Program-made: the position numbers and the translations under genes | Shown: in pieces, positions 12,320-16,015 of the stretch | Layout of the letters: each line of letters opens with the position of its first letter | Position numbering within the stretch: position 1 is the first letter of the stretch | DNA from: Leifsonia sp. AG29 | GTDB taxonomy: Bacteria > Actinomycetota > Actinomycetes > Actinomycetales > Microbacteriaceae | Direction of reading: 5' to 3' | Assembly (NCBI RefSeq): GCF_009765225.1 | Contig: NZ_VMSF01000002.1 | Span: 1 to 41,920 of the forward strand | Length of the DNA: 41,920 nt | The notes under the pieces: model-generated | What the model was told of the DNA's origin: nothing | The model's input: the letters and a program-made list of their open reading frames with translations, nothing else | The model's database searches: none

Positions 12320-12609
12320 CTAGATGTAGTTCCCCGTGAGGTTGTGAACGCGGGCTGCGGGTGTTGAGCCGCCGATGCCGGTGTGGGGTTGGTGGTGATT
12401 GTAGTGATGGAGCCATCGGTCGTAGTCGGCCGCTCGGGCTTCGTCGCTGCTGTAGGCGCGGGCGTAGGCCCATTCGGTTGCCTGGGTGCGGTTGAACCGC
12501 TCGACTTTGCCGTTGGTCTGTGGCCGGTAGGGGCGGGTGAAGCGGTACCGGATCGGGCCGAGTGCGGCGGCGAAGTCGCGTGAGCGGTAGCAGGCGCCGT
12601 TGTCGGTCA
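12320..12609 (-). pseudogene. IS481-family transposase, C-terminal fragment
   Basis: The fragment encodes about 96 residues: MTDNGACYRS carries the second catalytic Asp of the DDE core, and RFTRPYRPQTNGKVERFNRT carries the final Glu in its usual IS481 context. LHHYNHHQPH follows and the frame ends NLTGNYI. The reading frame is cut by the IS3 inverted repeat at 12610. The final codons run through the IS481 end into flanking DNA. A longer open frame upstream on this strand is only the antisense of IS3 orfB. Confidence 0.88.
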
Positions 12610-12653
12610 TGTTGCGCCCCGGGTCTGGTGGAGGCTCCTGACATCCCGAAAGG

Positions 12654-12980
12654 ATGAGGGGTACGCCGAAGTTGAGGAAGTATCCGCCTGAGTTGAAGGA
12701 GCGGGCTGTGCGGCTGGTTCTGGCCGCACGTGATGAAGATGGTGGCCGTCGTGGCGCGTGCACGCGGGTCGGGCAGCAGCTCGGGATCCCGTCGGACACG
12801 CTTCGCGGGTGGGTCCAGCGGGCCGAGGTCGATGGCGGCTTGCGGCCGGGCCGCTCCAGCGACGACGCGGAACACATTGCGAACCTTGAACGCGAGGTCC
12901 GCGAGTTGCGTCGGGCGAACGCGATTCTTCGCAGCGCGTCGGCTTTCTTCGCGGCGGAGCTCGACCGCCCACACAGCTGA
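12654..12980 (+). CDS. IS3-family transposase OrfA
   Basis: The 108-residue protein has the N-terminal helix-turn-helix of IS3 OrfA (KYPPELKERAVRLVL, then QQLGIPSDTLRGWVQRAEVD) and a leucine-zipper-like tail (IANLEREVRELRRANAILRS). It would bind the element ends. The TGA stop overlaps the ATG of orfB by one base, so OrfB is made by re-initiation or, as in other IS3 elements, by a -1 frameshift. The ribosome site is poorly spaced. OrfA itself is intact, but its partner is broken. Confidence 0.9.
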   Translation: MRGTPKLRKYPPELKERAVRLVLAARDEDGGRRGACTRVGQQLGIPSDTLRGWVQRAEVDGGLRPGRSSDDAEHIANLEREVRELRRANAILRSASAFFAAELDRPHS

Positions 12981-13669
12981 TGGTTGATTACATCGACGCG
13001 CACAAGGATGAGTTCGGGGTCGAGCCGATCTGCGAGGAACTGCCGATCGCCCCGTCGACGTATTACGCCGCGAAGACCGCGCCGCCGTCCGCGCGGGCGC
13101 TCAGCGATGAGCGCGCGTTGACTCAGATCCGCCGGGTCCATGCAGAGAATCTCGGCGTCTACGGGGCCCGGAAGGTGCACGCTCAGCTGCGCCGCGAAGG
13201 GCACACGCTCGCACGGTGCACCGTCGAACGGCTGATGCGTCGCGATGGGCTGCGCGGTGTCACTCGAGCTCGCGGCCCGCGCACGAAGATCGCGGGTGAC
13301 CCTGCCGCGCTGCCCCTGGATCTGGTTGAGCGCGCCTTCACCGCAACACGCCCCGACCAGCTCTGGGTCGCGGACATCACTTACATCCGCACCTTCGCCG
13401 GCTGGGTCTACGCGGCGTTCGTGACCGACGTGTTCTCTCGACGCGTGGTGGGCTGGCAACTCTCCACCAACCTGCGCACCGATCTCGCTCTCGACGCCTT
13501 GGAAATGGGTATCTGGACGCGGGAACACGACGGCCACGACACCACCGGGCTCACCCATCACAGCGACCGAGGAGTCCAATATCGAGCGATCCGCTACACC
13601 GAACGTCTCGCCGAAGCCGGCGCGGTCGCCTCGGTCGCCTCGGTCGGCTCCCGCGGCGACTGCTACGAC
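12980..13669 (+). pseudogene. IS3-family transposase OrfB, 5' part (broken by IS110 insertion)
   Basis: This encodes about 230 residues of the DDE integrase: YGARKVHAQL, then DQLWVADITYIRT with the first catalytic Asp, and HHSDRGVQYRAI with the second. It stops at SRGDCYD, exactly where the conserved YDNALAE motif of IS3 transposases should continue. After that point the frame reads into the IS110 end and terminates at 13729. The remaining part resumes in frame at 15017. Confidence 0.9.
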
Positions 13670-13682
13670 TGTCAGTCTGTTT

Positions 13683-13888
13683 CTACCGGATCCCGCGAGG
13701 ATCGGGTAGTCCTGGCCGGCGCGGTCTGACCCGTGCTTATGACTGACCCAGATGGTGTCTTGGCGTTGATCTGTCGACCGCCCGGCCGGGCATGCAAGAA
13801 CCGCTGCCGCCGGACGGGCGTGACCTAATAGGAGCCTGGAGCAGACTTTTGAGAGCGTCCCCGTGACAGTCCTGTCCACCCGCCGGCG
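13683..13888 (+). ncRNA. predicted IS110 bridge RNA (5' hairpin, target loop, donor loop)
   Basis: The non-coding left end folds into three parts in the order known for IS621-type bridge RNAs. (1) Hairpin 13683-13693/13699-13709, 10 of 11 pairs. (2) Target loop closed by 13714-13726/13776-13787, 12 bp with C13720 bulged, topped by a small hairpin at 13745-13759. (3) Donor loop closed by 13808-13818/13879-13888, 10 bp with A13814 bulged. Guides: TTATGAC (13737-13743) reads like the left target CTACGAC (13663-13669) with two U.G-type differences. GGCGTTG (13762-13768) is the exact complement of the right target CAACGCC (15016-15022). ATAGGAGC (13828-13835) equals the element's right end (15006-15013). 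TGACAG (13864-13869) is the complement of CTGTCA at the left joint (13669-13674). Exact RNA ends are not known. Confidence 0.85.
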
Positions 13889-13929
13889 ACAGCGTGACAT
13901 CAACGCTAACCGGCAGGAGACAGCACGCT

Positions 13930-15000
13930 ATGACAGCCCTCGAAACGGCCCGCTCCGGGCACGTCGTTATCGGCATCGACACACATAAGCACATTCACGT
14001 CGCCGCCGTGATGGACACCATCGGAGGGATCCTCGCAACGCTGACGATCACGACCGACCAGGCGGGATTCAAACAGGTGCTGGAATGGGGTGCGTCGTTC
14101 GGAAAGATCCTCGCGCTCGGCATCGAGGGGACCGGCTCCTATGGGGCAACCTTGACATCGTTCCTGCGCCGCCACGGACACAAGGTCGTCGAGGCGGGAC
14201 GACCCGACAGGCGGTCCCGACGAGTGAACGGCAAATCGGACACCCTCGATGCGGAGAACGCCGCCCGATCCGTTCTGGCCGGGTTCGCGACCGCGACACC
14301 GAAGACCGCGGACGGGACGGTTGAAATGATCCGTCAGCTCAAGATCGCCCATGATTCCGCGGTCACGGAGCGCTCCGCGACGATGGTCACGATCAAAGCA
14401 ATGCTCGTCCACGGAGCCGATGAGCTGCGCCGGGAAACCAGCCGCAAGTCCCAGATCATGCTCGCCCGCCATCTCGCTGCGCTACGCCCGCGAGCGTTAG
14501 ACACCCCCGACGACGCGCTGCGACACTCGCTGCGCTCCCTCGCTCGCCGCTGGCAGAACCTGGACGCCGAAGCAAAGGAACTCACCGCGATGATCGAGCA
14601 GCTCGTCACCAACACCGCCCCGCAACTGGTCGAGCAATTCGGCATCGGCATCGACACCGCAGCCGAGATCCTCATCGTCGCCGGCGACAATCCCGAACGC
14701 ATCCGATCCGAGTCAGCATTCGCGAAACTCGCCGGCATCAGCCCCGTCCCAACAGGCTCAGGCATGACCAGCGGCAGGCATCGCATCAACCACGGCGGAC
14801 ACCGCCAACTCAACGCCGCCATCTATCGCACGGTGATCGTCCGAATGCGGTTCCACGAGCCGACAATCGCCTACGTCGCTCGCCGCACCGCCGAGGGCAA
14901 GAGCAAACGCGAGATCATCCGGTGCCTCAAGCGCTACGTCATCCGCGAGGTCTATCACCTCGTCAAAGCCAACCCGACGACCGGCGAAATCGGAAGTTGA
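13930..15000 (+). CDS. IS110-family transposase/recombinase (DEDD, Tnp20)
   Basis: The 356-residue recombinase uses the bridge RNA to join the circular element to its target. The RuvC-like N-terminal domain shows VIGIDTHKH (Asp17), ALGIEGTGSYG (Glu66) and GKSDTLDAENAA (Asp104, Asp107), the DEDD set. The C-terminal Tnp20 domain has GISPVPTGSGMTSGRHRIN and GGHRQLNAA, containing the candidate catalytic Ser. I chose ATG 13930 because AGGAGA stands nine bases upstream; a GTG at 13894 would add 12 residues and extend beyond the predicted bridge RNA end. The gene is complete, so the element may be active. Confidence 0.93.
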   Translation: MTALETARSGHVVIGIDTHKHIHVAAVMDTIGGILATLTITTDQAGFKQVLEWGASFGKILALGIEGTGSYGATLTSFLRRHGHKVVEAGRPDRRSRRVNGKSDTLDAENAARSVLAGFATATPKTADGTVEMIRQLKIAHDSAVTERSATMVTIKAMLVHGADELRRETSRKSQIMLARHLAALRPRALDTPDDALRHSLRSLARRWQNLDAEAKELTAMIEQLVTNTAPQLVEQFGIGIDTAAEILIVAGDNPERIRSESAFAKLAGISPVPTGSGMTSGRHRINHGGHRQLNAAIYRTVIVRMRFHEPTIAYVARRTAEGKSKREIIRCLKRYVIREVYHLVKANPTTGEIGS

Positions 15001-15016
15001 CAACTATAGGAGCGTC

Positions 15017-15256
15017 AACGCCCTCGCCGAGGCGTTCAACTCGCTCTTCAAAGCCGAACTCGTCCGCCACCGCGGCCCTTGGAGATCGATCGAGGACCTC
15101 GAGTTCGCCGTCGCCGAATACATCGACTGGTTCAACCACCGACGCTTGCACTCAGCGATCGGGATGATCCCGCCCGTCGAACACGAACAGCAGCACTACG
15201 ATTCACACCGAACCCCCGATCGCAACAGCGAACGGGTCACCGCGAGCCTCCGATAA
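15017..15256 (+). pseudogene. IS3-family transposase OrfB, 3' part
   Basis: The frame continues OrfB from NALAEAFNSLFKAELVRH, with the catalytic Glu in ALAEAF, through EYIDWFNHRRLHSAIG to TAA at 15254-15256, 79 codons. It joins in frame with the 5' part ending at 13669 when the IS110-type element is removed. The terminal inverted repeat overlaps its last codons. Confidence 0.9.
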
Positions 15257-15271
15257 ACCCGGGGCGCAACA

Positions 15272-15506
15272 ACGCGACAATCCGATGCTCCAACCGCCTC
15301 GAGCACCGGTTCGGCGAGGACCGTGGCCGAGAAGACGGATCCGTCATCGACAAGCCTGAGCGAGCACGATCGACCCAGCGTTTCGCCGTGGCCGGCGAGC
15401 ACTGGAACCGCTCCGCCGCCCGCCGCAGCGACCAGCCGCTCTCCAACACGAGCTCGACCAGGCGTCGGCGCCCCTCCGGCGTCAAGGGTGCATTAGCGTG
15501 AGTCAC
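15272..15506 (-). pseudogene. IS481-family transposase, N-terminal fragment
   Basis: GTG 15506-15504, with ACGGAGGT upstream, starts about 78 codons (MTHANAPLTPEGRRRLVELV, then AAERFQCSPATAKRWVDRA) that form the helix-turn-helix N-terminus of IS481 transposases. The frame is cut at 15271 by the IS3 end. Roughly 140 residues of the usual protein are absent between this part and the C-terminal fragment at 12320-12609. Confidence 0.85.
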
Positions 15507-15564
15507 GAAGACCTCCGTTGGTGACTGTGAGTGTGGTAACCCACATCCTCCACGGAGGTCTTCG
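15506..15564 (-). promoter_or_regulatory. inverted repeat that can mask the IS481 transposase ribosome site
   Basis: CGAAGACCTCCGT (15506-15518) and ACGGAGGTCTTCG (15552-15564) are perfect 13-bp complements. On the minus-strand transcript the downstream arm contains the GGAGGT ribosome site and borders the GTG start. RNA entering from outside the element would pair both arms and hide the start, while transcription beginning between the arms would not. Confidence 0.6.
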
Positions 15565-15601
15565 CCTACCTCAGCTGTTCACAACGTGTCGAGGAACTAC
15601 A

Positions 15602-15714
15602 CCTAAGTGCTCGGACTCGTTTGTTGTCAGTTTGTTGTCAAATCGTCTCGAACCAGAGGTTCGGCTGGGGGTGGATCCCGGCAAACAACTGGGATCGCGC
15701 CCCCTGATTCACTG
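15602..15714. other. junction between IS nest and tRNA-Ser 3' end, with 9-bp direct repeats
   Basis: TTTGTTGTC occurs twice (15620-15628 and 15631-15639) close to the 3' end of tRNA-Ser, a common integration site for genomic islands. Short direct repeats beside a tRNA resemble integrase arm sites. No integrase gene or duplicated tRNA end is present in the window, so this is only a possible scar. Confidence 0.3.
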
Positions 15715-15799
15715 CGGAGGGCGTGGGATTCGAACCCACGAGACATTTCTGTCCACCAGTTTTCAAGACTGGCTCCATCGGCCGCTCGGACAGCCCTCC
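15715..15799 (-). tRNA. tRNA-Ser(TGA)
   Basis: The 85-base gene has a 7-bp acceptor stem (GGAGGGC with GCCCTCC), discriminator G, a T arm GTGGGTTCGAATCCCAC, an anticodon loop CTTGAAA with anticodon TGA (complement of 15763-15765), and a long variable arm as expected for serine. CCA is not encoded. It lies about 2.6 kb from serS. The mobile-element nest lies on its 3' side, while GC-rich housekeeping genes lie on its 5' side. Confidence 0.97.
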
Positions 15800-15887
15800 C
15801 GGCGCCGGAGAACCGGCGTCGCCCGATTCTAGCGAACGGGGCCGACTCGTACGCGGACACCTCGGCGGGACGACCTCGGTCGCCGAT

Positions 15888-15979
15888 TTATCCACAGCCG
15901 CCAGCAGGTCTCGGGCGATGAGCCGTCACTAATGGCCCCCTCAGGCCGCGAAATCGGGCGCGAAGGGGCCATTGGTGAC
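15888..15979 (+). repeat. dispersed repeat, copy 1 (DnaA-box-like motif plus hairpin)
   Basis: TTATCCACAG (15888-15897), 27 bases, then GTCACTAATGGCCCC (15925-15939), which pairs with 15965-15979 at 14 of 15 positions. The loop contains CTCAGG..CGAAATCGGG. It lies about 36 bases beyond the LCP gene stop and could act as its terminator. Copies 2 and 3 at 37579 and 38051 share the motif, the spacing and the TGGCCCCCTCAG core. Confidence 0.75.
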
Positions 15980-16015
15980 GTCTCACGCGCCGGCCCCCGC
16001 GCCGCGCGGGCGGCT

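Follow-up and report, generated by a model that had tools for sequence, protein, structure and literature searches.

A complete IS110-group element in Leifsonia sp. AG29 very probably carries, in its left end, a bridge RNA whose target guides are directed at the codons of a protein motif, namely the Tyr-Asp and Asn-Ala codons that stand directly ahead of the catalytic Glu of IS3 transposases; this reading of the sequence, guides included, is one that we hold with high confidence, and the accompanying core mechanism with less. The element breaks an IS3 orfB between these codons, and the same conserved protein motif is the site common to most of the clade that we examined. The window is the whole stretch of DNA that was analysed, 41,920 nucleotides in length; all coordinates refer to it, and the features are collected in Table 1.

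The ends were read from the sequence. The element starts at 13670 with TGTCAG and finishes at 15016 with TATAGGAGCGTC, the left flank CTACGAC finishing at 13669 and the right flank AACGCC running from 15017, and the joints read CTACGAC-TGTCAG and GAGCGTC-AACGCC (here and below a hyphen within a motif marks the joint). Profile searches scored the recombinase above the NF033542 cut-off and located its DEDD/RuvC and Tnp domains through PF01548 and PF02371, which places it in the IS110 family, and the spacing, with 260 bp between the left end and the ATG and 16 bp after the stop, gives the layout of the IS110 group, in which a long left end holds the guide RNA upstream of the gene and the right end is short. 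A single match to the element was found in its own genome. Intact IS3 relatives keep the site unbroken; one of them, L162, has 69% identity across the part that was queried and reads CTACGATAACGCCCTCGCCGAGGCG, and the site pattern was present in 12 of the 19 loci L162-L180.

Table 1. Coordinates of the IS3 and IS110 features in the window and the basis of each assignment.
Feature	Position	Strand	Basis
IS3 orfA	12654..12980	+	PF01527
IS3 orfB, 5' part, C-terminal ..GDCYD	12980..13669	+	PF00665, NF033516
IS3 orfB, 3' part, N-terminal NALAE..	15017..15256	+	NF033516 positions 314-368
Complete IS110 element, 1,347 bp	13670..15016	+	no target duplication; joints read directly, same ends in relatives
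CAGTCT, -10-like half of putative junction promoter	13673..13678	+	17 nt from TTGACA in the circle; sequence and left-end tallies
Bridge RNA, predicted extent	13683..13894	+	consensus fold and pair counts, 32 left ends
5' stem-loop	13686..13706	+	helix 1: 4 pairs changed on both sides, pairing in 96.0% of cells
Target-binding loop with closing stems	13709..13791	+	helices 2-4
Left target guide (LTG) UUAUGAC	13737..13743	+	pairing with left flank CTACGAC and, in relatives, co-change with the flanks
Right target guide (RTG) GGCGUU, then GA (complement of donor core TC), U	13762..13770	+	right flank AACGCC; GA in 58/63 left ends
Donor-binding loop with closing stems	13802..13894	+	helices 5-7
Left donor guide (LDG) AUAGGAGC	13828..13835	+	identical to right end 15007-15014
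Right donor guide (RDG) UGACA, then GU (complement of target core AC), C	13864..13871	+	left end TGTCA
IS110 recombinase gene	13930..15000	+	ATG 13930, stop TGA 14998-15000; PF01548, PF02371, NF033542 (IS110 family RNA-guided transposase)
TTGACA, -35-like half of putative junction promoter	14997..15002	+	overlaps the stop codon

Around the insertion, the window holds an ALIL pseudoknot (RF01497, 89.2 bits) at 12941-13054 on the plus strand, which is presumably the frameshift signal of the IS3 element, and a tRNA-Ser (tga) lies near the nest at 15714-15799 on the minus strand. Pieces of an IS481 transposase on the minus strand, at 15237-15506 and within 12320-12903, flank the IS3 element, so that the nest looks like an IS110 within an IS3 within an IS481; the pieces cover profile positions 1-71 and 193-284, and the middle of the profile (72-192) was not found.

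The initial annotation had described a bridge RNA in this left end, folding into a 5' hairpin, a target loop and a donor loop, and both the RNA and this fold are supported by paired changes among homologues. A consensus derived from 32 aligned left ends, picked among close relatives, consists of a 5' stem-loop followed by the target loop and the donor loop, each of which holds an inner hairpin, and 97.0% of its 1568 cells (49 consensus pairs) are paired. Double-sided changes occur at 12 pairs, compared with 5.7 ± 1.5 in shuffles, of which 0 of 500 were as good. When the partners were slid along the alignment pairing fell to 31-47%, a control that is biased toward the structure because the structure was derived from the same sequences; the double changes are the stronger structural point, and relatedness can inflate them. 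Closing stems of 12 and 10 bp with a single bulge each had been described, and these did not hold, the consensus target stem having 9 + 7 pairs and the donor stem 10 + 6, with several bulges; the donor stem reaches to about 13894, past the proposed extent of 13683-13888. Folded alone, 13683-13888 reached -90.7 kcal/mol where shuffles averaged -81.3 (z -1.97; 5 of 200 shuffles did as well), and the fold of 13640-13920 did not stand out (z -1.14; 22 of 200 did as well). The energy of a single fold was thus dropped as a stand-alone proof, and since these energies are weak the structural case is the alignment. A search of Rfam over 12800-16000 returned no match resembling a bridge RNA, the six matches listed being the IS3 ALIL pseudoknot, the tRNA and four under the gathering score.

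In several relatives (L016, L019, L034, L132 and partly L041) a different sequence takes the place of the left end almost as far as the left donor guide. The first four are without a target loop, which L041 retains, and the right joints are still at IS3 codons.

All four guide segments that had been assigned from the sequence fit the actual joints. GGCGUU at 13762-13767 together with the G at 13768 is the exact complement of CAACGCC, and UGACAG at 13864-13869 is the complement of CTGTCA. The left donor guide is nearly invariant among relatives, and the right donor guide and the left end vary together (UGACA with TGTCA, UCACA with TGTGA, UCGCA with TGCGA and UCACU with AGTGA), an agreement that is partly circular, as the left boundary was searched with the complement of that guide. 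Pseudo-targets that match the target loop equally well make up 83 of 83,788 in the window (0.1%), and the single locus is for this reason suggestive and the evidence across loci decides.

Relatives were gathered by similarity of the recombinase and not by their flanks. The 160 loci yielded 80 with a parsed RNA, 72 of them distinct (8 parsed loci were duplicates), and the 80 unparsed loci comprise truncated copies, replaced left ends and distant relatives; 36 distant loci that were attempted gave no clear reading. From plasmids, 16 loci were taken among 60 matches listed and 9 among 30 matches listed, with 20 further places added, and no relative was found in the viral contigs searched. The relatives are mostly seen in Actinomycetota and in Alphaproteobacteria too, where two copies (L185 and L187) are at IS3 YD-NA. 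Both joints could be read in 51 of the 56 distinct loci that have ≥50% identity, and in 47 of these 51 the element sits within an IS3 transposase, in frame at [Y/F/W][D/V]-NA; five more distinct loci have one readable joint, which in 4 of the 5 is at YD or NA. Among the exceptions, L028 has its left joint at YD and its right joint displaced by four bases, L040 has its left joint in IS3 after Gly-Asp and its right joint elsewhere, the left side of L051 is cut by the contig end and its right side reads NALAE, and L151 adjoins a region of the group II intron HNH type, with PF21368 on the right flank and a left flank that has no Pfam match. Taking the right ends alone, AAYGCN stands at 64 of 71 distinct right joints, with 4 loci lacking the anchor, and an rve domain was found in 8 of 8 left flanks scanned from the IS3 group, L040 falling under the Pfam cut-off. 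In one Leucobacter metagenome-assembled genome a single guide set is found in different IS3 genes (both joints of L017 and L018, the right joint of L024).

The co-variation of target-loop guides with the flanks of other copies, which the initial annotation had named as the comparison to make, was examined in 15 relatives that have other guides and 44-56% identity (the degraded L134 was excluded, and the left target guides of L048 and L088 were re-read by hand). Positions 1-6 of the left target guide pair with their own flank in 81 of 90 cells, whereas permuting the flanks gave 47.0 ± 4.7, and 0 of 20,000 permutations were as good; with one locus per guide the figures are 45 of 54 against 24.9 ± 3.6, again with no permutation as good. 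The right target guide gave 54 of 78 in 13 loci against 33.4 ± 4.5 (0 of 20,000 as good) and, when each guide was represented by a single locus, 40 of 60 against 24.6 ± 3.6 (0 as good), its pairing being poor in several relatives at 44-48% identity, for example L078 and L102. Among the close relatives read, identical loops at unrelated flanks, named beforehand as the outcome that would speak against guidance, were absent save for the odd joints of L040 and L136, whose right joints are elsewhere, and single or double guide mismatches occur, as in L032. Within the IS3 group the guide partly tracks the aromatic codon, with TGG at Trp (L012, L035), GGC at Gly (L040) and TTT at Phe (L127), but Phe codons are met by seven TAY guides, Tyr codons by two TTT guides and a Trp codon by one TAT guide.

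A common site could also arise if a few old insertions had been carried along with IS3 rather than through repeated targeting, and some flanks are indeed closely related, two clusters holding 8 of the 47 each. Pairwise identity among the 47 IS3 flanks has, however, a median of 42%, and at 70% the flanks fall into 25 clusters, which points to many separate insertions, and we consider a few inherited insertions barely credible as the explanation. Nor does it seem at all likely, if slightly less remote, that the recombinase protein itself recognises the IS3 site and that the guide-like matches in the left end are irrelevant to targeting. The guides and flanks of the IS3 group are so uniform that pairing and a fixed protein preference look alike there, but similar elements with different guides sit at their own matching flanks (L102 and L103 at 84% DNA identity, L040 and L068 at 84%, L098 and L151 at 82%), and none of the permutations of left guides and flanks equalled the observed pairing. 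Repeated, RNA-guided insertion is the reading that we retain, and the interpretation of loops and guides in the initial annotation is upheld by the covariation of the structure, the co-change of guides with flanks and the intact IS3 relatives with their uninterrupted site.

Other relatives are found at other sites. Three of them (L077, L150 and L093) interrupt IS481 transposases, with NGK[I/V] before the joint and ERF after it (profile positions 232 and 233 lie on either side of L150), and L181 is at this site too with a small irregularity; we take the codon at this site to be that of the catalytic Glu. According to the record annotation and the translation, L184 splits an IS256 transposase at YFPD-W. 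L139 (ISMch6) and L149 end at HSD of IS3, L102 lies within an IS5-type transposase and L155 directly after an IS6-type one. L098 and L151, which share one genome and 82% DNA identity, are at IS3 YD-NA and beside the group II intron type HNH region, respectively, and their guides differ. In the plasmid copy from Microvirga ossetica (L135) the left joint, at about 2279, lies in a gene that was read as nadB; the left guide and the left flank have CTTCGTTCGAT in common, and the right guide GCAUU fits the right flank AATGC.

The arrangement of the core was examined with joints re-read without any requirement on letters, since the first boundary search had demanded TC at the right joint and favoured [AT][CT] at the left one. 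Donor TC ends 104 of 105 right joints, and GAY stands at positions 7-9 in 58 of 69 left-joint hits, a few loci having given more than one hit, which places the crossover after position 9. The right target guide was likewise re-read without requiring GA (63 distinct left ends read, 47 loci unread), and GA, the complement of the donor core, follows it in 58 of 63. GU, the complement of target AC, follows the right donor guide in 59 of 63, and GA in 2 (L077 and L093), where the target core is TC and the left target guide has, in our reading, U at position 8; L181 also has GA after its right donor guide, with TC at its irregular left joint. In these few independent changes the left target guide and right donor guide appear to follow the target while the right target guide keeps to the donor, as would be predicted for a handshake that reaches position 8. 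Of the 5 right target guide reads other than GA, L038 is real (GU), L107 and L136 are misplaced anchors whose sequences have GA, and L117 and L121 may be real exceptions; L046, with the left core GTC, breaks the rule for the target core. Unlike cores in target and donor, with right-hand guides that would encode the core of the partner, are probably the main departure from the published rule.

Both wobble pairs of the Leifsonia copy are at third codon positions. Over 50 rows, positions 6 and 9 of the guide have U in 45 cases, facing target C in 31 and T in 14, and C in 50 cases, facing C in 47 and T in 3; this difference (Fisher p 0.0024, or 0.017 when only distinct pairs are counted) suggests that the guide letter matters for the sites reached. 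At position 12 of the right target guide, G stands opposite C in 45 of 53 rows, T in 7 and G in 1. The constancy of this G was dropped as a finding, because rows had been selected for a right target guide ending GCGTT and it is there by construction; L135 has A at this position with target T. In the relatives that target IS481, U of the right target guide faces the third base of the Glu codon, in our reading GAA in L077 and L150 and GAG in L181. Tolerance of synonymous third-position changes by the guide letters is supported by these comparisons.

Whether such tolerance was selected is a separate matter, and it may well be, as we are slightly inclined to think, that U and G at third codon positions reflect drift tolerated through wobble. 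The guides are related, targets in GC-rich genomes mostly have C, and a change from C to U is harmless where U pairs with G; the more frequent meeting of U with T counts against drift and falls short of proof of selection. For the core, a conventional arrangement with the register wrongly set, and hence no special crossed core, is unlikely in our view but by no means negligible. In IS621, handshake guides at positions 6-7 already pair with the partner once strands have been exchanged (PMC11208158, in the portion available), and position 7 shows covariation; position 9 is a pyrimidine in both molecules here, and L038, and possibly L117 and L121, depart from the pattern. On the other side stand the letters at the right and left joints, which set the crossover after position 9, and L077 and L093, where the target has T at 8 and the left target guide (in our reading) and right donor guide have changed alongside while the right target guide stays with the donor. 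The crossed core is on balance the arrangement that we prefer.

A mechanism can be proposed on this basis. In the excised circle the joined ends would create a promoter, TTGACA-17-CAGTCT, that would drive the bridge RNA; TTGACN is present in 68 of 71 right ends, and 67 of these have it at a distance of 14 nt from the crossover. The donor loop would read the element's own joined ends and the target loop the Tyr-Asp and Asn-Ala codons beside the catalytic Glu of IS3 transposases, where U and G guide letters at third codon positions could accept synonymous codons, and the recombinase, by analogy with IS621, would swap top strands after the Asp codon, insert the element and split the IS3 gene before the Glu. 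Core position 8 would not be common to the two molecules, and as each right-hand guide is complementary to the partner there, pairing should favour the exchanged product.

We tentatively put forward a wider possibility, that this branch of bridge-RNA elements preys on mobile elements through wobble-tolerant guides to codons of catalytic motifs, that prey is switched by guide change, that strand exchange is programmed by the RNA, with right-hand guides encoding the partner, and that insertions disarm competing transposons. The prey would comprise IS3 (YD-NA and after HSD), IS481 (NGK[I/V]-ERF), IS256 (YFPD-W), an IS5-type transposase and the group II intron HNH region; L078, L182, L183 and L188 run counter to such a rule, being at CTGAC, with a stop codon there in L078 and L182, and so does L135, in the gene read as nadB. 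The L182 joint, at 1246, coincides with the end of an annotated traB, right at its stop codon, TGA followed by C. Because wobble can absorb synonymous change in active-site codons, prey could hardly escape without loss of function, and an RNA guide aimed at such codons is a concrete and testable case of mobile elements preying on each other. The survey also supplies dozens of natural guide-target pairs, natural retargeting included, for a bridge-RNA clade outside the IS621 group, and the core rule predicts recombination between unlike cores if the right-hand guides encode the partner, which a plasmid assay can test.

Bridge RNAs are already known, as are IS3 catalytic codons as an IS110 target (ISEc21). 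New against the literature covered are the YD-NA target, the sites at the presumed catalytic Glu of IS481, in IS256 and at the group II intron HNH region, and the altered core. In the open-access literature ISEc21 was the only IS110 element reported at IS3 codons; subscription papers and preprints lay outside this scope, and a report there is possible. Statements on published systems refer to the portions of the sources that were available. An IS110 element in Kocuria is described, in the available portion of its source, without its target (PMC12500396), and a bridge RNA was predicted in 85.7% of IS110-group elements (Durrant et al. 2024, PMC11208160). The IS1111 group (ISKpn4, ISPa11, IS4321/IS5075) is alike in RNA-guided choice of site (attC, REP) or insertion in transposon ends, but has its guide RNA downstream of the gene, and its subterminal inverted repeats are longer. 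As in IS621, the Leifsonia element has an IS110 recombinase, a predicted left-end bridge RNA with a 5' stem-loop and target and donor loops, the same guide polarity and putative halves of a junction promoter (PMC11208160, PMC11208158). IS621 has REP sequences as its target and a CT core in target, donor and all four guides, with top strands cleaved after position 9 (PMC11208158), whereas this element goes to IS3 codons and has target AY and donor TC, with right-hand guides that would encode the partner. The nearest precedents are ISEc21 and ISMch6 (Siddiquee et al. 2024, PMC11187229), IS110 elements whose upstream guide RNA is aimed at IS3 codons in the catalytic domain and of which ISMch6 shows natural redirection. 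The ISMch6 recombinase is 44.8% identical to that of the Leifsonia element; ISEc21 and ISMch6 use the codons of the second Asp (HSD; PMC11187229), whereas the Leifsonia element and its clade insert at YD-NA, before the Glu, with other guides.
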